Below are positions 4,059 through 32,035 of a stretch of DNA of 33,068 nucleotides, one piece after another. The notes under the pieces are model-generated. The model did not search any database and had not been told where the DNA came from. It worked only from the letters and a program-made list of their open reading frames with translations. The translations under genes and the position numbers were made by a program. The stretch is from Hyphomicrobiales bacterium (lineage in GTDB: Bacteria > Pseudomonadota > Alphaproteobacteria > Rhizobiales > HXMU1428-3), in the NCBI GenBank assembly GCA_017640685.1, contig JAEPQF010000019.1:4338-37405 (forward strand), read 5' to 3'. The stretch's first letter is position 1, and every line of letters begins with the position of its first letter.

Positions 4059-5453
4059 TTAGAAATGAAGCGCTCTACCATAAGCATCGAGCACACTTTC
4101 ATGCATCATTTCTGAAAGGGTTGGATGAGGGAAGACCGTTTCCATTAACTCATGCTCAGTTGTCTCTAGCCCCATGGCAACGGCATAGCCTTGAATGAGT
4201 TCAGTGACTTCCGCACCGATCATATGAGCGCCTAAAAGCTCGCCTGTTTTGGCATCAAATATGGTTTTGACCATGCCATCAGGTTCACCCAGCGCCAAAG
4301 CTTTACCGTTTGCTTGGAAAGGAAATCTACCCACTTTTAGTTTGTGACCTTTTTCCTTGGCTTGATCTTCTGTTAAACCAACAGAGGCGATTTGCGGCGT
4401 TGTGTAAGTACAACCTGGGATGAGATTGCCGTCTAAAGGTTTCACCTTATGGCCAGCAATCGTTTCCACTGCAATGATAGCTTCGTGACTTGCTTTGTGG
4501 GCGAGCCAAGGTGGGTTAGTCACATCTCCAATCGCAAAGATATTTGCGACATTGGTTTTGCCCCATCCATCTGTTTTGATGAAGCCACGATCAAGCTCAA
4601 GCCCCAAGGCTTCTAGACCGATATTTTCAACATTTGGTGTGATGCCAACGGCAGTGATGACACGATCAAACGTTTCAGTGGTAGTTTTGCCCCCCTTTCC
4701 TTCGATGGTCAGAGAGATGTCATTTTTACCTGGCTTTGTTTCTTTCACGCTTGATTGCGTGAGAATGTTAATGCCAGACTTTTTAAAGGCTTTTAATGCA
4801 AAGTCTGAAATTTCAGCATCTTCAGCGGGAACAATGCGATCTGCAAGTTCAACGATGGTGACTTCAGCGCCAAGAGCATTGTAAAAGTTTGCAAACTCAA
4901 CACCAATAGCACCTGAGCCGATGACGCAAAGTCTTTTTGGCATGACATCCGGCATCAATGCTTCACGGTAGGCCCAAATATATTTACCATCAGGTTCTAG
5001 ACCAGGTAAATTACGGGCTCGGGCGCCCGTTCCGATGATGATATTTTTCGCCTTGACGGTTTGATCACCTTTTTCAGTTTTTACAATAAGGCTTTTGTCT
5101 TTAGCTATCGCTGCTTCGCCTTCAATGACTTCAATTTTGTTTTTCTTCATCAAGTAAGAAACGCCGCCTGTTAGTTTTTCAGAGACTTTTCTTGACCGTT
5201 TGATGATGGCATCAAAATCAAATTTTACACCTTCGACTGAAATGCCAAATTCATCAGCATGTTTGATGGTTGAATAGATTTCAGCTGAACGAAGCAATGC
5301 TTTGGTGGGGATACAGCCCCAGTTTAAGCAAATGCCTCCTAAATTTTCACGCTCGATTAAAACGGGCTTTAGGCCAAGTTGTGCTGCGCGAATAGCGGCC
5401 ACATAACCGCCAGGTCCGCCGCCTATTATTGCGACGTCGTATATTGTGCTCAT
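4059..5453 (-). CDS. lpd: Dihydrolipoyl dehydrogenase (PDH E3)
   Basis: A 464-residue flavoprotein that reoxidises dihydrolipoyl groups of PdhC using FAD and NAD+. The N-terminal FAD-binding motif is GGGPGGYVAA, the redox-active disulfide is in GGICLNWGCIPTKA (two Cys four residues apart), the NAD-binding motif is GSGAIGVEFA near residue 180, and the second FAD motif is NIFAIGDV. The C-terminal dimer interface has FPHPTLSEMMHES, which holds the catalytic His-Glu pair. It is the last gene of pdhA-pdhB-pdhC-lpd, 27 bases after pdhC. Full length and intact. Confidence 0.97.
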   Translation of the reverse strand: MSTIYDVAIIGGGPGGYVAAIRAAQLGLKPVLIERENLGGICLNWGCIPTKALLRSAEIYSTIKHADEFGISVEGVKFDFDAIIKRSRKVSEKLTGGVSYLMKKNKIEVIEGEAAIAKDKSLIVKTEKGDQTVKAKNIIIGTGARARNLPGLEPDGKYIWAYREALMPDVMPKRLCVIGSGAIGVEFANFYNALGAEVTIVELADRIVPAEDAEISDFALKAFKKSGINILTQSSVKETKPGKNDISLTIEGKGGKTTTETFDRVITAVGITPNVENIGLEALGLELDRGFIKTDGWGKTNVANIFAIGDVTNPPWLAHKASHEAIIAVETIAGHKVKPLDGNLIPGCTYTTPQIASVGLTEDQAKEKGHKLKVGRFPFQANGKALALGEPDGMVKTIFDAKTGELLGAHMIGAEVTELIQGYAVAMGLETTEHELMETVFPHPTLSEMMHESVLDAYGRALHF

Positions 5454-5480: not shown

Positions 5481-6806
5481 TTAAACCAACATAGTGACAG
5501 GGTCTTCGATATAACCTTTAAATGCGCCAAGTAATTCAGCGCCTAAGGCTCCATCAACCACACGGTGATCGCAAGAGAGCGTCACAGACATAACGGTGCG
5601 TGGTTCGACTTTGTCTTCAACGATGGTTGGTCGGCGCTCACCAGCACCTACAGCCAAAATTGTTGATTGAGGAGGATTGATCACCGCATCAAACTTTTTG
5701 ATACCGAACATACCGAGGTTTGAGATTGAGGTTGTGCCACCGGTATATTCATGTGGTGCAAGCTTTTTAGAGCGTGCTCTAAAGGCAAGGTCTTTCATTT
5801 CATTTGAAATTTCTGACAGTGTTTTTAACTCACAATGACGGATAACCGGTGTGAATAATCCACCTTCAACGGCAACAGCGACTGAGACATCTGACCTTTT
5901 ATGGCGCAGAATACCTTGTGTTGACCATGTTGCATTTGCATCTGGCACTTGCTGTAGGGCTAGACCCATAGCCTTGATGATGAAATCATTTACAGAGATT
6001 TTAAATGCGCCTGGGCCTTCTTTTGGAGATTGGTCATTTAACCGCTTGCGGGCATCAAGAAGACTGTCCAATTCGCAATCAATTGTAAGGTAGAAGTGCG
6101 GAATGGTTGATTTGGCAACAGTTAGTCGCTCTGCAACCGTTTTGCGCATATTATCTAGGGGTACTAGATCATAGCTGCCTTCTTCATAGGTTGCAAAAAT
6201 CTCTTTGTCTGACACTGGAGAAATTGCATGGCCCCCTGTAACAGGTGCGACTTCACCAAGGCTCCGTGTAACAGCTGTTCCCTCTGGTGCGCCTTCAAGG
6301 TCTGCTTTTATGATGCGCCCGTTTGGCCCGGTGCCTTTGATAGCAGAAAGATCAATGTTTTTCTGACTAGCGATCCGTTTTGCAAGGGGGGATGCGATGA
6401 TACGTCCATTTGCATTGCTTTGAGGTGCATTTGCCGTTTTTGGTGCTGCTGGTGTTTCAGAAGATGGTTTGGCAACCGGCTTTTCAGCTGTCTCAGTTTT
6501 TTCTTCTGTTACAGGAGCAGCAACTGGGGCAGCTTCCATACTATCTATTGCTGTTTTGTCTTCTCCTTCAAGAAGAAGGACGGCGATTGTTGAATTTACA
6601 GCAACATTTGCTGTGCCTTCTTCGATGGTGATGGAGCCGATGGTTCCTTCATCAACAGCTTCAACTTCCATGGTTGCTTTGTCGGTTTCGATCTCAGCAA
6701 TGACGTCGCCTGAGGAGACTTCATCTCCTTCACTTACGTGCCATTTTGCGAGAGTGCCGACTTCCATTGTTGGGCTTAGTGCCGGCATCAAAATTGGAAT
6801 AGGCAT
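5481..6806 (-). CDS. pdhC: Pyruvate dehydrogenase E2, dihydrolipoyl acetyltransferase
   Basis: A 441-residue E2 with three parts: an N-terminal lipoyl domain (residues 1-80, lipoylated Lys43 in [10 protein letters not shown]), an Ala/Pro/Glu-rich linker, a peripheral subunit-binding domain (about 135-171, ASPLAKRIASQKNIDL...GTGPNGRI), a second linker and the catalytic domain (about 215-441) with SNLGMFG and the active-site CDHRVVDGA. One lipoyl domain is usual for alphaproteobacteria. It forms the core of the PDH complex, passing acetyl from E1 to CoA. The first 50 residues are almost the same as those of PdhB, indicating an ancient shared lipoyl domain. Confidence 0.96.
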   Translation of the reverse strand: MPIPILMPALSPTMEVGTLAKWHVSEGDEVSSGDVIAEIETDKATMEVEAVDEGTIGSITIEEGTANVAVNSTIAVLLLEGEDKTAIDSMEAAPVAAPVTEEKTETAEKPVAKPSSETPAAPKTANAPQSNANGRIIASPLAKRIASQKNIDLSAIKGTGPNGRIIKADLEGAPEGTAVTRSLGEVAPVTGGHAISPVSDKEIFATYEEGSYDLVPLDNMRKTVAERLTVAKSTIPHFYLTIDCELDSLLDARKRLNDQSPKEGPGAFKISVNDFIIKAMGLALQQVPDANATWSTQGILRHKRSDVSVAVAVEGGLFTPVIRHCELKTLSEISNEMKDLAFRARSKKLAPHEYTGGTTSISNLGMFGIKKFDAVINPPQSTILAVGAGERRPTIVEDKVEPRTVMSVTLSCDHRVVDGALGAELLGAFKGYIEDPVTMLV

Positions 6807-6832: not shown

Positions 6833-8176
6833 TTATGTTCTGTAGGTAACTTTTTTAACTGCTTCCACAATCTGGTTGGTTGTTGGCAAGGCCAAAGCTT
6901 CCAGATTAGCTGCATAAGGCATTGGCACATCGGCGCCGCTGACTTTCAGTGGTGGAGCGTCTAACTCGTCAAATGCGAGGTTTGTTACACTGCTACAAAT
7001 TTCTGATCCGATTGAACAAGTTGGCCAGCCTTCTTCAACAACCACAATGCGATTGGTTTTGCGAAGAGATGTTAGGACCGTATCCATATCCAATGGGCGC
7101 AGAGTTCTTAGATCAATGATCTCAGCACTAATGCCCATTTCTTTAAGTTCAACATCAGCATTTTCGACATATTCAACGCCGCGAGAATAAGAAACGATGG
7201 TGACATCTGTTCCTTGTTGTCTCACATTTGCTTTGCCGATTGGGATGATGTGATCGTCCGTTTCAGGGACGGGGAAGGATTTGCCATATAGAATTTCATT
7301 TTCAAGAAAGACGACCGGGTTAGGGTCTTTAATGGCGGCTTTTAGCAAGCCTTTGGCGTCACTAGCGCTATAAGGTGCGATCACCTTAAGCCCTGGAACT
7401 TGTGCATACCAGGAAGAATAATCCTGACTGTGTTGGGCTGCCACTCTGGAGGCAACACCGTTGGCTCCTCTGAATACAACAGGACAGCGCATTTGCCCAC
7501 CTGACATATAAAGCGTTTTGGCAGCTGAATTGATGATATGATCAATGGCTTGCATCGCAAAGTTGAATGTCATGAATTCAACGATTGGCTTGAGACCTGC
7601 CATACCAGCACCACAAGCGATACCAGCGAACCCATATTCGGTAATTGGCGTATCAATCACTCGTTTTTTACCAAATTCATCAAGTAGGCCTTGTGTGACT
7701 TTATAAGCGCCTTGATATTCGGCGACTTCTTCACCCATCACAAATACACGATCATCAAGACGCATTTCTTCTGCCATGGCATCTCGAAGTGCTTCTCTAA
7801 CTGTGATTTCTACTTGATTGGTAAGGGGGGCTGGTTCTTCTGTCGCAGCGATTATTTCTGTTGTTGGTGTTTCTGCTGCATCTTGGTTGGTTGTGTTTGT
7901 GTTGGTATCTGATATGGCCGTTGCGGCGTCTTCACCTTCACTTAGGATAATGGCAATTGGCGTGTTTACCGCCACATCCATTGATCCTTCTTCAATTAAA
8001 ATTTTGCCAATGGTGCCTTCTTCAACAGATTCAACTTCCATGGTTGCTTTGTCTGTTTCAATTTCGGCTATGACGTCACCAGAGTTTACTTCATCTCCTT
8101 CTGTGACGTGCCATTTGGCGAGATTGCCCTTTTCCATTGTTGGAGAAAGAGCGGGCATTAAAACCTCAATAGGCAT
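6833..8176 (-). CDS. pdhB: Pyruvate dehydrogenase E1 beta with N-terminal lipoyl domain
   Basis: A 447-residue protein, longer than a plain E1 beta because residues 1-80 form a lipoyl domain (Lys43 in [10 protein letters not shown]). An acidic Thr/Ala/Glu linker (about 81-122) follows, then the E1 beta body (about 125-447) with [13 protein letters not shown], the TPP-site segment [18 protein letters not shown], and [10 protein letters not shown]. Lipoyl-E1 beta fusions are known from rhizobia and other alphaproteobacteria, so this is a family trait rather than a novelty. It pairs with PdhA to decarboxylate pyruvate. It lies 23 bases after pdhA and 26 before pdhC. Confidence 0.96.
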
Positions 8177-23848: not shown

Positions 23849-25405
23849 ATGAATGAAGTTCCAAATTCAGGGGGTAATCAGTTTGCTCCAGAACTTTCAT
23901 CCTTTCAAAAGCTTTATAAGAAAGGGCGTTCGCAAGTTGTTTGGGCACGGCTTGTTGCTGACTTAGAAACGCCTGTTTCTGCTTTTTTGAAGTTAACCGA
24001 GCGGCATCCAAAAAATAGTTTTCTCTTTGAAAGTGTTGAGGGTGGTGCCGTTCGCGGGCGTTATTCTGCGATTGGTTTAAAGCCTGATCTTATATTTCAA
24101 AGCAATGGCGAAAAATGTGAAATTAATGAAGACTGCCTTGATGGTGAGACAGAGTTTACGCCTCTTGCAGCACCGACGTTAGATGCAATGAGAGATTTGT
24201 TAGAGCGTTCGAAGATTGATTTGCCAAGCGAACTTCCACCTATGTCGGCTGGTGTTTTTGGCTATATGGCCTATGACACTGTGCGCTTGATGGAGCACTT
24301 GCCGGATGTAAATGAAGATGTTCTAGGGCTTCCTGATTCAATTTTTGTGCGCCCGACTATTATGGTTATTTTTGATGCTGTAAAAGATGAAATCGTGATG
24401 GTTCACCGGGTTGATGTTAAAGAGGGTGTTTCAGCTAAGACAGCGTACACAACTGCTATTGAGAATTTAAAAGAGGCGATTTTAGATTTAAATGCGCCTG
24501 TTCCTCATATGCATGAGGTAAATATTGATGAGGAGGATGGTGCTCCTTTATTTGAAGAGCCAACTTCAAACACCACGCCTGCGCATTATAAAAAAATGGT
24601 GAAACAGGCTCAGAAATATATTACTGAAGGTGATATTTTTCAGGTGGTTTTAAGTCAACGGTTTAGCGCGCCTTTTTCTTTGCCGCCCTTCTCGCTTTAT
24701 AGAGCGCTTCGACGCACGAACCCGTCTCCCTTTCTTTATTATCTTAATTTTACGGACTTTTCAGTCATCGGTTCGAGCCCAGAAATTTTAGTGCGTGCGC
24801 GTGATGAAGTGGTCACTATTCGCCCTATTGCTGGCACGCGGCAACGCGGGAAAACAGAAGCTGAAGACAAGGCTCTTGGCGAAGATCTCTTAGCTGACCC
24901 GAAAGAATGCGCGGAGCATCTTATGCTATTGGATTTAGGGCGTAATGATGTGGGGCGTGTTGCTGAAACTGGCACTGTTAACGTAACTGATCAGTTCTTT
25001 TTAGAGCGCTATAGTCATGTGATGCATATTGTCTCTAATGTTGAGGGCAAACTTTCTACAGAATTTGATGAGATTGATGCGTTAATGGCTGGTTTCCCCG
25101 CTGGTACTGTTTCTGGCGCTCCTAAAGTGCGGGCAATGGAGATTATCGATGAACTTGAGGTTCATAAACGCGGTGTTTATGCAGGCTGTGTTGGTTATTT
25201 TTCAGCGACAGGTGAAATGGATAGCTGCATAGTTTTGCGAACAGCCATTGTTAAAGATGGTCAGATGCATGTGCAAGCTGGTGCTGGGATTGTGGCAGAT
25301 TCTGTGCCGCAATCAGAATTCGATGAATGTGTGAATAAAGCAAAAGCTTTGTTTAGTGCGCGGGCAGAAGCGCTTCGTTTTGCAGGTATTAAGAGAAACA
25401 ATTAA
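23849..25405 (+). CDS. trpE: Anthranilate synthase component I
   Basis: A 518-residue enzyme making anthranilate from chorismate with ammonia from TrpG. The N-terminal regulatory part includes FLFESVEGGAVRGRYS, close to the Trp-binding LLES region. The chorismate-binding domain has GDIFQVVLSQRF, PSPFLYYLNF, GSSPEILVR, RPIAGTRQRG, HLMLLDLGRNDVGRV, HVMHIVSNVEG, AGFPAGTVSGAPKVRAMEII and QAGAGIVADS. It is a separate gene, not the fused TrpEG found in some rhizobia. The stop is followed three bases later by the sixA start. AAAGG lies about ten bases before the ATG. Confidence 0.97.
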   Translation: MNEVPNSGGNQFAPELSSFQKLYKKGRSQVVWARLVADLETPVSAFLKLTERHPKNSFLFESVEGGAVRGRYSAIGLKPDLIFQSNGEKCEINEDCLDGETEFTPLAAPTLDAMRDLLERSKIDLPSELPPMSAGVFGYMAYDTVRLMEHLPDVNEDVLGLPDSIFVRPTIMVIFDAVKDEIVMVHRVDVKEGVSAKTAYTTAIENLKEAILDLNAPVPHMHEVNIDEEDGAPLFEEPTSNTTPAHYKKMVKQAQKYITEGDIFQVVLSQRFSAPFSLPPFSLYRALRRTNPSPFLYYLNFTDFSVIGSSPEILVRARDEVVTIRPIAGTRQRGKTEAEDKALGEDLLADPKECAEHLMLLDLGRNDVGRVAETGTVNVTDQFFLERYSHVMHIVSNVEGKLSTEFDEIDALMAGFPAGTVSGAPKVRAMEIIDELEVHKRGVYAGCVGYFSATGEMDSCIVLRTAIVKDGQMHVQAGAGIVADSVPQSEFDECVNKAKALFSARAEALRFAGIKRNN

Positions 25406-25408
25406 GAT

Positions 25409-25936
25409 ATGTTAGATCTTTATATCTTGCGGCATGCAAAATCGAGTTGGAAAGATTTAGACCTTGATGATTTCGATCGCCCGCTCAATAAGCGTGGTAA
25501 GTTGAATTCGGCTCAGATGGGGCGGTATTTAAGTGAAAGAAATGTCCGCCCCCAAATGGTTTTGTGTTCCAAAGCTAAACGCTGCAAGCAGACATTAAAA
25601 AGACTATTAGCAGAAGGATTTTCTCCTTCTCAACAAGTTTTCTTAAACCGGCTTTATCTTGCGAGTTCTTCTGAAATTTTAGAGGAAATTCGAAACACAT
25701 CAGATACTGTTAAGTCTCTGATGGTTGTGGGGCATAACCCTGGATTAGAGAGTTTCATTGAAAAGCTTGTTGAAGATAAAGGCAATGCTGACTATTTGTC
25801 TATTTTAGAGAAATTTCCAACTTGTGCCTTGGTTCATATTCAAATTGACACAGATTGTTGGTCGACGCTTGCCCCAAACTCGGGAAGGCTTTATTGTTAT
25901 ATCACTCCAAAGCAGCACTTTTCTCAGGACACATAA
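25409..25936 (+). CDS. SixA-like histidine phosphatase between trpE and trpG
   Basis: A 175-residue histidine-phosphatase superfamily protein. The catalytic motif is [10 protein letters not shown] at residues 5-14, followed by [14 protein letters not shown] (phosphoglycerate mutase-like loop), [10 protein letters not shown] (the S-x-A-x-R-x3-T motif) and the second catalytic His in VVGHNPGLE. This is the SixA pattern; E. coli SixA removes phosphate from a His on phosphotransfer proteins, but many relatives have unknown substrates. It starts 3 bases after trpE and ends 5 bases before trpG, so it must be translated from the trp mRNA. No phosphorelay or PTS gene is close by. The C-terminal 25 residues are less typical. 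Confidence 0.88.
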
Positions 25937-25941
25937 AGTTA

Positions 25942-26553
25942 ATGATCACTCTTATCGATAATTACGACAGTTTTACCTATAACCTGGTTCATTACATTGG
26001 TGATTTGGGTGTTCATTCAGATGTTGTTCGCAATGATAAGATTACGGTTGCGAAGGTTCTTAAAGCCAAACCTAAAGCGATTGTACTCTCTCCAGGCCCT
26101 TGCACACCGAATGAAGCGGGGATTTGCCTTGAGTTAATTAAAAAGGCTGCTGGGAAATTTCCAATTTTTGGGGTTTGTCTTGGGCATCAATCAATTGGCC
26201 AAGCCTTTGGCGGAAAGGTCATTAAGGCGCCTGAATTGATGCATGGGAAAACATCTGAAATTACTCATGAGGAGCATTCAGTCTTTAAAGGGCTGCCTTC
26301 TCCCTTTACAGCCACGAGGTATCATTCGCTGATTGTCGAAAAGAAAAGTTTGCCTGATTGCTTTGACATTACTGCTGAAAGCTCTGATGGGTTGATTATG
26401 GGATTAGCCCACAAAGAGTATCCTATTTTTGGGGTGCAATTTCACCCAGAGAGTATTGCTTCTGATTATGGCCATAAGATTTTAGGTAATTTCCTTGAAA
26501 TTGCGGGTCTTTCGATTGACCATAAAATTTTTGAAAAACAATTGACGGCATAG
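25942..26553 (+). CDS. trpG: Anthranilate synthase component II (glutamine amidotransferase)
   Basis: A 203-residue class I glutamine amidotransferase that supplies ammonia to TrpE. It starts [23 protein letters not shown], has [13 protein letters not shown], the nucleophile in [25 protein letters not shown] and the His-Glu pair in [20 protein letters not shown]. The frame is open upstream for 29 codons, but the extension overlaps sixA and the ATG at 25942 gives the standard N-terminus. A dual role with PabB (p-aminobenzoate) is possible, since sequence alone does not separate TrpG from PabA; position in the trp cluster favours TrpG. Confidence 0.95.
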
Positions 26554-26611
26554 GTTATAGTTTTCAAAAATAAGAAATAATTTTAGCCGTTTGATTAATA
26601 GTGGGGACGCA

Positions 26612-27625
26612 ATGGCACGTATCGAAGATTACATCCAAATTGTATCAACTGGTGAGAGTTTATCTCGAGAACAATCAGCTGCTGCTTTTGAACTTTTGAT
26701 GACGGGGCAAGCGGAGCCCGCTCAAATTGGCGGTTTTCTTATGGCACTTCGTGTACGAGGGGAAACAGTTGATGAAATCACGGGTGCTGCTGAAGTGATG
26801 CGCGCCAAAGCTACTGGTGTTCAAGCGCCAGAAGGCTCGGTTGATACATGCGGAACTGGTGGCGATAGCTCAGGGACGTACAATATTTCAACATGTAGTT
26901 CTTTTGTGGTGGCTGGCGCGGGTATCCCAGTTGCGAAACATGGCAACAAGTCAATTTCTTCAAAATCAGGTTCGGCTGATGTGCTTGCCTCTTTAGGGGT
27001 GAATTTAGATGTGACACCTGAGATCGTTGAAAAATGCATCGAGCAAGCGAATATTGGGTTCATGTTTGCGCCGGCTCATCATTCAGCTGTGCGTCATGTT
27101 GGCCCAGCTAGAGCTTCTCTTGGTGTGAGGACTATTTTTAATTTGCTTGGCCCTCTTTCAAACCCAGCGGGCGCCAAACGGCAGGTGCTTGGTGTTTTTT
27201 CTGATGAATGGTTGGTTCCTATCGCTGAAGTGTTACGTACACTCGGCTCAACAAAGCTTTGGGTTGTTCATGGGGCTGATGGTCTTGATGAGTTATCAAC
27301 AACCGGTGAGACCAAGGTTGCTGCGCTTGATAATGGTGAAATTACAACCTTTACCGTGCATCCTGAAGAGGTTGGTTTACCTCTTACAAGCATAGATATG
27401 CTAAAAGGAGGTGATTCTGAGGTGAATGCGGTTGCCATTAAGGAAGTTTTAAAGGGTGAGATGGGACCATTTAGAGATATCGTCTTGCTCAATGCTGCGG
27501 CAGCGCTTGTTGTTAGCGGTAAAGTGAATGACTTGAAAGAGGCTGTTGGTGTTGCGGCTAATGCTATTGATGATGGTAAAGCACTTGAGGCGTTGGAGCA
27601 GTTGATTACACTAACCAATGGTTAA
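26612..27625 (+). CDS. trpD: Anthranilate phosphoribosyltransferase
   Basis: A 337-residue enzyme joining anthranilate to PRPP. An N-terminal helical part (ARIEDYIQIVSTGESLSREQSAAAFELLM) is followed by VDTCGTGGDSSGTYNIST, the PRPP-binding glycine-rich loop, then KHGNKSISSKSGSADVLASLGV, FMFAPAHHSAVRHVGPAR and FNLLGPLSNPAGAKRQVLGV. The GDELS-type metal motif appears as DGLDELS. I chose the ATG at 26612, seven codons inside the open frame, because GGGGA lies directly before it and the preceding start would be TTG. It is 58 bases after trpG. Confidence 0.97.
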   Translation: MARIEDYIQIVSTGESLSREQSAAAFELLMTGQAEPAQIGGFLMALRVRGETVDEITGAAEVMRAKATGVQAPEGSVDTCGTGGDSSGTYNISTCSSFVVAGAGIPVAKHGNKSISSKSGSADVLASLGVNLDVTPEIVEKCIEQANIGFMFAPAHHSAVRHVGPARASLGVRTIFNLLGPLSNPAGAKRQVLGVFSDEWLVPIAEVLRTLGSTKLWVVHGADGLDELSTTGETKVAALDNGEITTFTVHPEEVGLPLTSIDMLKGGDSEVNAVAIKEVLKGEMGPFRDIVLLNAAAALVVSGKVNDLKEAVGVAANAIDDGKALEALEQLITLTNG

Positions 27626-27702: not shown

Positions 27703-29361
27703 ATGAAAAATATGCTGGATCGCATTATTGCTCACAAAGCAAAAGAGGTGGCGAATGCCAAAAACATATTGCCTCTTTCAGAAATTGAAAATCAAGCCAG
27801 AGCTGCGACAGCGCCACGCGGGTTTATCAAATCTATTCAAAGATTTCATGCAGATGGTAAAGCCGCTTTAATCGCTGAGATTAAAAAGGCAAGCCCTTCT
27901 AAAGGTTTGATCCGGCCTGATTTTGATCCTGCGACATTAGCTGATGCTTATGAGACAGGGGGGGCTGCTTGTCTTTCTGTCTTAACGGACATTGCGTTTT
28001 TCCAAGGGCATCCACAATATTTAAAAGAAGTGCGCACTGCTTCAACTTTGCCTGTCTTGCGCAAAGATTTTATGATCGACACGTACCAAGTTGTTGAGGC
28101 ACGCGCATGGGGTGCTGATTGTATTTTGGTTATTATGGCGGCTGTAGATGATGTTATGGCTCAATCCATTACCAATATGGCTAACAAGTGGGGCATGGAT
28201 GTGCTTGTTGAAGTGCATAATCGTCAAGAATTAGAGCGGGCTCTTAAACTTAATACGCTTTTAATTGGGATTAATAATCGCAACTTGCAAACTTTTGACA
28301 TCAAACTTGAGACTACAGAAGGGTTAGCGCCCCTTATTCCAAAAGACCGGATCATTATTAGTGAAAGTGGTATTACAACTCATGATGATTTGATTCGTCT
28401 TTCTAAAGTTGGGTCGAATACGTTTCTTGTTGGTGAATGTTTGATGCGGAAAGAGAATGTTCAGCAAGCCACCAGAGTTCTGCTTGGACATGAGGCCGTT
28501 CCTGATTTTTTTCCTGATGTGAAGGGTGCTGAGGCTGGCCAAGAAACGGCAGCACAAAGAGCCCCTTCACCAAATGAAGCACCACAACAAGATCAAGTTA
28601 CAGCTCCTTCAATTGATGAAAATAAGTTTCATGAAGAGTTGAAGCAATCGAATGATGAAACTGACATTAAAATAGAAGATGTGCAGTTGCTTGGAGATAA
28701 TTTTGAAACAGCCATTGAAGAACTTGGCGCTTTGATAAGTTCTGGTAGTGATGGCAAGGACGGGGCGCAACAACCACAAGTCAATCAAGAAAAAGTGCAA
28801 CAAGCACAATCTGCTGTTAAACAGCCTGAGGTTCAGAGCCGCAGTGTTGAGACCCGTAGTGTTGAGACGGAGCAAAAGCTTTCTCATGTTAATGAGGCAG
28901 GTGCTGCTCATATGGTTGATATTTCAGAAAAAGGCGTTACTCAACGGGTTGCCGTTGCAGAAGGGTTTGTTGCTATGCAGCCTGAGACATTGGCACAAAT
29001 TCAACAAAATGCGATGAAAAAGGGTGATGTTTTAGCAACCGCGCGTATTGCTGGAATAATGGCAGCGAAGAAAACATCTGATCTTATTCCTTTATGCCAC
29101 CCTCTTCCTGTAACAGGTGTTGAGGTTTCGTTTACTCCAGCCACTGAGCCAGCAACCGGAATATTGGTGCAGGCAACGGTAAAAGTTGACGGAAAAACAG
29201 GTGTGGAAATGGAAGCTTTGACAGCGGTTTCAGTTTCTTGTCTTACTATTTATGATATGGCCAAGGCTATTGATAAGGGGATGAGTTTTTCTGGGGTGCG
29301 TTTATTAGAAAAAACAGGTGGTAAGTCAGGAACTTACCGGGCACCAGATGCAGCAGAATAA
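27703..29361 (+). CDS. trpC-moaC: Fusion of indole-3-glycerol-phosphate synthase (TrpC) and cyclic pyranopterin monophosphate synthase (MoaC)
   Basis: One uninterrupted 552-codon frame. Residues 1-262 are Trp[60 protein letters not shown] and FLVGECLM, with the catalytic Lys/Glu and the phosphate-site Ser present. Residues 263-391 are a Gln/Glu/Ala/Pro-rich linker without recognisable domain. Residues 392-552 are MoaC from [19 protein letters not shown] through [29 protein letters not shown] (catalytic Lys) to [22 protein letters not shown] (catalytic Asp). Both halves look complete. No ATG occurs in frame between residue 248 and 404, so MoaC has no normal start of its own. TrpC makes indole-3-glycerol phosphate; MoaC makes cPMP for molybdenum cofactor. 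In related bacteria these are adjacent separate genes. Confidence 0.93.
28840..28869 (+). repeat. Tandem 15-bp repeat in the TrpC-MoaC linker
   Basis: Two consecutive 15-base units, CGCAGTGTTGAGACC and CGTAGTGTTGAGACG, differ at two bases and encode RSVET twice (residues 380-389). They lie in the low-complexity linker directly before the MoaC domain and keep the frame. Confidence 0.85.
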
Positions 29362-29419
29362 TTATACTGAGTTGTCATTTTAGAAACCGTTTCATTTTTT
29401 GTTATTTTTGGAGTTATTA

Positions 29420-30655
29420 ATGAGTTTACTTTCAGTTGCTGAAGCTCAGGACCGTATGGTTGCTAAAGGGCCTCTCATGGCGACTGAAACGTTACCATTA
29501 GAGCTTTGTTCTAACCGTGTTGTTGCCAAGTGTATTTCCGCTAAAATCACTCAACCTCCATTTGCCGCTTCGGCGATGGATGGATATGCCGTTATTCACT
29601 CTGATTGTAATTCACTTCCCTCTTCTTTCAGAATTGTTGGAGAAAGCTCAGCTGGACACCCCTTTGACGGGAAGATTTCTTCAGGAGAAGCTGTTCGAAT
29701 TTTTACGGGCGCTGTTGTGCCTGAGGGGGCTGATGCAATTGCCATTCAAGAAGATTGTGACAGGCAAGAAGATTGTGACAGGCTTGATGAGCAGATCGTT
29801 TTAGTAAAGGACGTTAGTGAGCCCGGCAAATTTATTCGAGCTGCGGGATATGATTTTCACAAAGGTGATGAGCTTATTCAAAAAGGAACATCACTTAATT
29901 TTCGGCACTTGGCACTTTTGGCGTCAATGAATATTGCTTCTGTTGAGGTTTTCAAAAAGCCAAAAGTTGCGATTATTGCAACGGGTGATGAATTAGTTCT
30001 ACCTGGAGAGGCTTTAGCGGACGGGCAAATTATTTCTTCTATTCCTTTTGGGATGAAACAGCTGCTTGATCAATCCGGTGCTGAAGCTCATTGCCTTGGT
30101 ATTGCAAAAGATAATTTAGAGAGTTTAGAGACTATAATTGGAACTGCTAAAGCTCCCGAGAATGCATTTGATATTATTGTGACAATTGGTGGGGCTTCTG
30201 TTGGTGATCATGATTTGGTGCAAGAGGCGTTAAAAAACGCCGGGATGAAACTTGATTTTTGGCGAATTGCCATGCGCCCTGGAAAACCCCTTATGGTTGG
30301 AACTTTGGGTGAGAAAAGCATTGTAGGTGTTCCTGGCAATCCTGTTTCAGCTTTAATATGCGCCGAGATGTTTGTTGTTCCGCTTATTCGCTCGATGGTG
30401 GGGATACCTTCTCCAATTAAAGAAACACAAACGGCTCTTTTACAAAATGCGGTTGGTTCTAATGGCCCTCGTAAACATTATATGCGCAGCTTTTACTGGA
30501 TTGATGAAAAGGGTCAACTTTGTGTTGAATGTAGAGAAAATCAAGATAGTTCATTGCAGGCGACTTTTGCATTTTCAAATTGTTTGATTGTAAGGGAACC
30601 TCATGCAGATCAAGCTTTTAAAGGTGAGTTTGTTGAAATTTATCCACTGGATTAG
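29420..30655 (+). CDS. moeA: Molybdopterin molybdenumtransferase
   Basis: A 411-residue MoeA that inserts molybdate into adenylated molybdopterin. The N-terminal PPFAASAMDGYAV, the VRIFTGAVVPEGADAIAIQED segment, PKVAIIATGDEL, the MoeA/MogA-type VTIGGASVGDHDLVQEAL, and MRPGKPLMVG with VGVPGNPVSAL are all present. The ATG at 29420 was chosen over the TTG seven codons upstream because TTGGAG lies just before it. Residues 110-121 are a perfect in-frame duplication, QEDCDR twice, beside the conserved QED of that domain. It is 58 bases after the TrpC-MoaC fusion and belongs to the same transcript by position. Confidence 0.95.
   Translation: MSLLSVAEAQDRMVAKGPLMATETLPLELCSNRVVAKCISAKITQPPFAASAMDGYAVIHSDCNSLPSSFRIVGESSAGHPFDGKISSGEAVRIFTGAVVPEGADAIAIQEDCDRQEDCDRLDEQIVLVKDVSEPGKFIRAAGYDFHKGDELIQKGTSLNFRHLALLASMNIASVEVFKKPKVAIIATGDELVLPGEALADGQIISSIPFGMKQLLDQSGAEAHCLGIAKDNLESLETIIGTAKAPENAFDIIVTIGGASVGDHDLVQEALKNAGMKLDFWRIAMRPGKPLMVGTLGEKSIVGVPGNPVSALICAEMFVVPLIRSMVGIPSPIKETQTALLQNAVGSNGPRKHYMRSFYWIDEKGQLCVECRENQDSSLQATFAFSNCLIVREPHADQAFKGEFVEIYPLD
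29747..29782 (+). repeat. Perfect 18-bp tandem duplication inside moeA
   Basis: CAAGAAGATTGTGACAGG occurs twice back to back (29747-29764 and 29765-29782) without a single difference, adding six residues in frame. Identity at all positions, including wobble bases, points to a recent event. Confidence 0.95.
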
Positions 30656-31324: not shown

Positions 31325-32035
31325 ATGCTGACGAAAAAACAAAAAGATTTACTTCTTTTTATTCATAGCCGTGTTCAGGAAACAGGCGTTTCTCCCTCTT
31401 TTGATGAAATGAAGGATGCACTTGAGTTAAAATCAAAATCAGGTATTCATCGCCTCATTACAGCGCTTGAAGAACGAGGATTTATTCGCAGACTTGCTCA
31501 CAGAGCGCGCGCTCTTGAAATTTTAAAATTACCTGAAGGGATGCAAAGCTCAGCTAATGAGGTCGCAAGCGCTCAGGCGAAAAGCAATGTTGTCTCACTC
31601 GCTGATGCTGCTTTAAAATCTTCTTCAGAGGCTTCTTCTGATCCATCTTCTATGACTGTGCCCGTTATGGGCCGGATTGCGGCTGGTGTTCCTATATCTG
31701 CTATTCAAGATCATAATAATGATTTGGTGGTTTCACCTGACATGCTAGGTAATGGTAACCATTATGCTCTTGAAGTTCATGGCGATTCGATGATTGATGA
31801 GGGTATTCTTGATGGGGACACGGTCTTAATTAAGGAAACGTCTACAGCTCGCAATGGTGATATTGTTGTTGCTTTTATTATTGAAGAAGAAGAAGCCACT
31901 TTGAAGAAGATATATAAATCTGGAAATGAGATTGAGCTTGTTGCTGCGAACCCGGCTTATGAACCGCGGAAATTCACATCTGATAAGGTGCAAGTCCAAG
32001 GACAACTTATTGGACTTGTTCGTAAATATCACTAA
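31325..32035 (+). CDS. lexA: LexA repressor
   Basis: A 236-residue SOS repressor. The N-terminal winged-helix domain begins MLTKKQKDLLLFIHSRVQET and carries GVSPSFDEMKDAL and SKSGIHRLITALEERGFIRR, the alphaproteobacterial form of the recognition helix region. A Ser/Ala-rich linker follows (about 75-110). The self-cleavage site is Ala120-Gly121 (RIAAGVP); the catalytic Ser155 is in HGDSMID and the Lys194 in ATLKKIY. All parts needed for RecA-stimulated self-cleavage are present. AGAGGGA precedes the ATG. It converges with comEC with 28 bases between the stops. Confidence 0.97.
   Translation: MLTKKQKDLLLFIHSRVQETGVSPSFDEMKDALELKSKSGIHRLITALEERGFIRRLAHRARALEILKLPEGMQSSANEVASAQAKSNVVSLADAALKSSSEASSDPSSMTVPVMGRIAAGVPISAIQDHNNDLVVSPDMLGNGNHYALEVHGDSMIDEGILDGDTVLIKETSTARNGDIVVAFIIEEEEATLKKIYKSGNEIELVAANPAYEPRKFTSDKVQVQGQLIGLVRKYH

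Follow-up and report, generated by a model that had tools for sequence, protein, structure and literature searches.

A single gene in a 33,068-nucleotide stretch of a Hyphomicrobiales draft genome (GCA_017640685.1, contig JAEPQF010000019.1; hereafter the window) joins indole-3-glycerol-phosphate synthase (IGPS, TrpC) of tryptophan synthesis to MoaC of molybdenum cofactor (Moco) synthesis. TrpC-MoaC is a cross-pathway fusion of operon neighbours that is fixed in a lineage, where it replaces both separate enzymes. Judging from its sequence, the gene quite likely specifies a single bifunctional chain of about 60 kDa, the domains of which would fold and work independently. Gene fusions are widely taken as a sign of functional linkage, but TrpC-MoaC joins enzymes of two pathways that have nothing but an operon in common. 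Whether a fusion of neighbours can be neutral could be tested cleanly on it, and it counsels care in 'Rosetta Stone' inference. Within its long, fast-evolving linker lies one constrained helix, which offers a concrete handle for telling the neutral from the functional reading.

Table 1 Features of the trpC-moaC locus and its surroundings (positions in the window)
Feature	Position	Strand	Remarks
trpE	23849-25405	+	by sequence inspection
SixA-like ORF	25409-25936	+	by sequence inspection
trpG ORF	25855-26553	+	by sequence inspection
trpD ORF	26591-27625	+	by sequence inspection
Upstream operon, trpE to trpD	23849-27625	+	by sequence inspection
trpC-moaC fusion gene	27703-29361	+	552 codons, ATG start, TAA stop
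IGPS (TrpC) domain	27703-28488	+	residues 1-262
Linker	28489-28878	+	residues 263-392, 130 aa, predicted disordered
Conserved linker motif	28693-28737	+	residues 331-345, predicted amphipathic helix
MoaC domain	28879-29358	+	residues 393-552
M404 codon	28912-28914	+	sole in-frame ATG between IGPS domain and MoaC core; preceded by a weak SD-like AGGTG, not conserved in the genus
moeA ORF	29399-30655	+	next gene 3' of the fusion; likely ATG at 29420; by sequence inspection
lexA	31325-32035		after moeA; by sequence inspection

Pfam and NCBIfam searches of the translation find complete IGPS and MoaC profiles within the one frame, which bears out the preliminary description of 552 codons holding a complete IGPS, a linker and a complete MoaC. 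In the N-terminal half, PF00218 covers residues 5-259 (profile positions 1-253 of 254; 315.8 bits against a cut-off of 27; E 2.2e-94), and the NCBIfam TrpC equivalog NF001370 matches residues 1-264 with 411.9 bits against a cut-off of 348. Residues E59, K61, K121, E170, N191, E221 and S222, which we take to be the catalytic residues of IGPS, are all there and invariant across the genus. The IGPS barrel is confident in the predicted monomer model, the nearest solved structure for this half is the Brucella IGPS 3tsm, and the first 50 rows listed by a PDB fold search hold IGPS-type matches alone.

The C-terminal half is equally complete, with PF01967 at residues 404-540 (profile positions 1-136 of 136; 191.7 bits against a cut-off of 27; E 6.7e-57) and the NCBIfam MoaC equivalog TIGR00581 at residues 393-542 (206.8 bits, cut-off 141.5). 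The motifs KKGDV (439), PLCHPL (463), MEALTA and YDMAKA (517) are intact, and KKGDV, PLCHPL and YDMxKA are presumably active-site motifs of MoaC. The MoaC core is predicted with moderate confidence in the monomer model, and the nearest solved structures are MoaC proteins such as 2eey and 4pyd. One genus member (locus L005, genome G007) carries an extra C-terminal tail, LTHPQRRTDGMAQTS, that is absent from the fusions of the other species.

The fusion protein has one whole-length match in its own genome, and no second trpC or moaC was found in the 230-contig draft; the suggested check for a separate moaC elsewhere thus left the fusion gene as the sole TrpC and MoaC match. Genes for moaE and for xanthine-dehydrogenase-type molybdoenzymes are found in all eight genus genomes, and moaA exceeds its cut-off in seven of them; the eighth genome is 78% complete. 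The Moco pathway is very probably in use, in which case the fused MoaC must serve Moco synthesis. Given that the copies are the only ones and that moaA, moaE, moeA and molybdoenzyme genes accompany them, both activities are presumably needed and both halves should be functional. The N-terminal TIM barrel would make indole-3-glycerol phosphate and the C-terminal domain cyclic pyranopterin monophosphate, each domain folding and catalysing independently of the other.

All eight genomes of the uncultured genus that were examined carry the fusion uninterrupted, at 65-83% protein identity; at one locus (L008) the contig ends inside MoaC, and one genus genome is assembled in 6 contigs. Public MAG records with the fusion include Hyphomicrobiales OFTM213 and OFTM288, Methyloligella sp. 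DHS20C07 and Rhodomicrobium sp. DHS20C08, and the names of these records suggest that they stem from at least two projects. Among the genomes searched, the genus is the sole member of its family. No whole-length match outside the genus appeared among the matches listed for a set of 61 genomes of relatives and for 397 order, 385 class and 299 phylum genomes, the latter three being samples reported as best matches only, so that a divergent fusion elsewhere could escape. The IGPS plus MoaC pair, for which a wider search had been proposed, is hence confined to the genus among the genomes sampled and the matches listed. Likewise, of 80 trpC-moaC loci retrieved from the collection of genomes, 4 are fused, all in this genus. 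Most of the unfused loci retrieved have trpC and moaC adjacent, with a short distance, often 7-80 bases, from one matched domain to the other and a frame change or stop in between; moaC directly 3' of trpC has already been noted on marine metagenome contigs (PMC2395257). Long open frames at L011, L022 and L023 were considered as independent fusions and rejected, given that a stop lies between trpC and moaC. A GNAT acetyltransferase-like ORF lies between the two genes in another Hyphomicrobiales MAG (Cca_12, locus L087, about 4800-5330), and gene insertion has therefore changed the trpC-moaC junction in that lineage.

A tree built from the concatenated domains unites the fused proteins in a single clade, with support of 1.0 and a long stem. 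As relatives keep trpC and moaC as unfused neighbours, the simplest reading of these sequences is a single origin of the fusion from an adjacent gene pair. The stop between the two genes would have been lost once, in the ancestral trp-moa operon of the ancestor of this genus- or family-level lineage, and an extended disordered linker would then have grown between TrpC and MoaC. The route first suggested, loss of the trpC stop together with gain of linker DNA, is supported by the adjacent unfused genes of most relatives and by the single fused clade.

The linker is acidic, rich in E, Q and A and free of Cys, and it ranges from 95 to 139 residues across the genus. Its pLDDT is below 50 in the predicted structure, with one helix at residues 334-346. 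Between close species the linker DNA is only approximately 60% identical, and none of the eight genomes has a stop in the fusion frame, whereas the other two frames of the window's linker contain 5 and 23 stops (3-24 each across the genus). The chance of a stop-free linker in shuffled sequence is p 0.0002 for the window's genome and 0.0000-0.024 per genome. For the four closest species, codon-based dN/dS comes to about 0.2-0.4 for the linker and 0.02-0.05 for the domains, rough values given that synonymous sites are near saturation (pS 0.5-0.8). With its open frame and codon constraint, the linker is most likely translated in phase with MoaC, and as a whole it is most likely weakly constrained. 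In a chain of this kind TrpC and MoaC would reasonably be present in equal amounts, and a MoaC hexamer could be decorated with as many as six TrpC barrels, each held flexibly by its linker; proteolysis or internal starts could uncouple the two.

Embedded in this linker is a short motif with the consensus [DN]-F-x-x-A-[IV]-x-E-L-G-A-[LM]-I (residues 332-345). The preliminary description of the linker as low-complexity fits its E/Q/A-rich composition but does not extend to this conserved part. The linker positions that are invariant in the eight genomes (D332, F334, A337, E340, L341, G342, A343 and I345) all fall within 14 residues; when the 76 gap-free linker columns were permuted 200,000 times, eight invariant columns never came to lie within so short a span. 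The hydrophobic residues F, I/V, L and I are spaced 4-3-4, which suits an amphipathic helix, and the helix predicted at 334-346 has low confidence (pLDDT about 33-37). No relatives of the motif were found in Pfam or the PDB at E values up to 10, and no convincing relatives of the motif or linker elsewhere in the genus genomes; two weak hits, one to an AsmA-like protein of the same genome (L113, E 0.1) and one to a P-type ATPase of a sister genome (L130, E 2.1), were judged by inspection to be chance matches. Conservation and predicted structure suggest that the motif most likely serves for docking, be it to TrpC or MoaC themselves or to a different protein. A further step is possible but doubtful, namely that the helix, as a novel kind of interaction motif, would make the TrpC-MoaC chain a scaffold by docking to one of its domains or to a third protein, the joint product then acting differently from the separate enzymes through shared localisation, stability or regulation. 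The conserved motif adds to the earlier account of the fusion, which otherwise stands.

Other explanations of the locus can be weighed against a single bifunctional chain. An artefact, that is, a stop or frameshift missed in one draft MAG, would be imaginable for a genome of 230 contigs, but it is refuted by the same structure in eight divergent genus genomes and can be practically dismissed. Separate translation of MoaC could start from M404 or a nearby ATG, GTG or TTG, with the linker as a tail of TrpC. The absence of any in-frame ATG between codons 248 and 404, as first described, holds for the window's gene but not for L002, L004, L007 and L008, in which an ATG lies 4-9 codons before MoaC (4/8 species). 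AGGTG precedes M404 in the window, GGGAG/AGGA-like sequences lie just 5' of the ATG near MoaC in L002 and L004, and the archaeal MoaC 2ohd, which aligns from its residue 4, has its N-terminus close to where M404 lies. However, the eight genomes have no internal start or SD-like sequence in common, and the recognizable starts of the neighbourhood use AGGA/GGAG-type sites: AGGA about 8-9 bases 5' of the ATG of the fusion gene, GGAG at moeA, and a site of this type at lexA. A start at M404 would also lose an 11-residue stretch that is nearly invariant in all eight genomes, and the linker frame is kept in phase with MoaC, so that separate initiation appears distinctly improbable.

Cleavage after translation is unlikely as well. 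One chain would be made and then cut in the exposed linker, leaving TrpC and MoaC to work separately, and the length and predicted disorder of the linker would suit this. Precedents exist in fungal NIT-7AB, for which cleavage freeing the MoaC part is reported (PMC7232280), and in human MOCS1AB, the cleavage of which is cited in the same paper, but both rely on mitochondrial import, which bacteria lack. Moreover, no conserved protease-like site was recognized in the linker, the sole conserved motif of which looks helical. Finally, the fusion might couple tryptophan and Moco synthesis, by regulation or channelling, through the linker motif. The motif is strongly constrained, and the adjacency of trpC and moaC is old and widespread in Alphaproteobacteria (see also the contigs of PMC2395257). 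On the other hand, the two enzymes have no substrate or product in common, gene adjacency by itself accounts for the fusion, and nothing convincingly related to the motif turned up in other parts of the genus genomes, in Pfam or in the PDB. We consider coupling highly doubtful, and a metabolic or functional link between tryptophan and Moco synthesis is unsupported. The bifunctional chain with independently working domains remains our preferred reading.

To our knowledge, TrpC-TrpF and TrpC-TrpB fusions are made without a long disordered linker. Like TrpC-MoaC they have an N-terminal IGPS, are bifunctional and belong to the trp operon (PDB 1pii; NCBIfam PRK09427, PRK13802), but their partner comes from the same pathway, whereas here it comes from Moco synthesis. 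MoaC-MoaB, MoaC-MOSC and MoaC-MobA (PRK03604, PRK14499, PRK14500) likewise place MoaC in a multidomain protein formed from neighbouring genes, and MoaC-MoaC, MoaC-MoaE and MoaC-MoaB fusions are described from archaea (PMC11237513). The partners in known MoaC fusions are Moco- or molybdenum-related, in contrast to the tryptophan enzyme that lies N-terminal of MoaC here. The animal and fungal MoaA-MoaC proteins MOCS1 and NIT-7AB (PMC7232280) share a C-terminal MoaC behind a linker, although their partner, MoaA, belongs to the same pathway and their processing depends on mitochondria, unlike TrpC-MoaC. The trpE-PLPDE_IV and trpF-truA fusions on Sargasso Sea contigs (PMC2395257) also join a trp gene to a non-trp neighbour, but these involve other genes and single metagenome contigs, whereas TrpC-MoaC is fixed in a genus. 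No published TrpC-MoaC fusion was found in the literature searched, in agreement with the initial impression that it was not known.

Two further features of the window concern other genes. The SixA-like ORF encodes a histidine phosphatase-like protein between trpE and trpG, and its 3' end overlaps the start of the listed trpG frame. At 6833-8176 (minus strand), the E1 beta subunit of pyruvate dehydrogenase has an N-terminal lipoyl-type domain, so that E1 beta and the adjacent E2 gene (5481-6806) both carry lipoyl domains.
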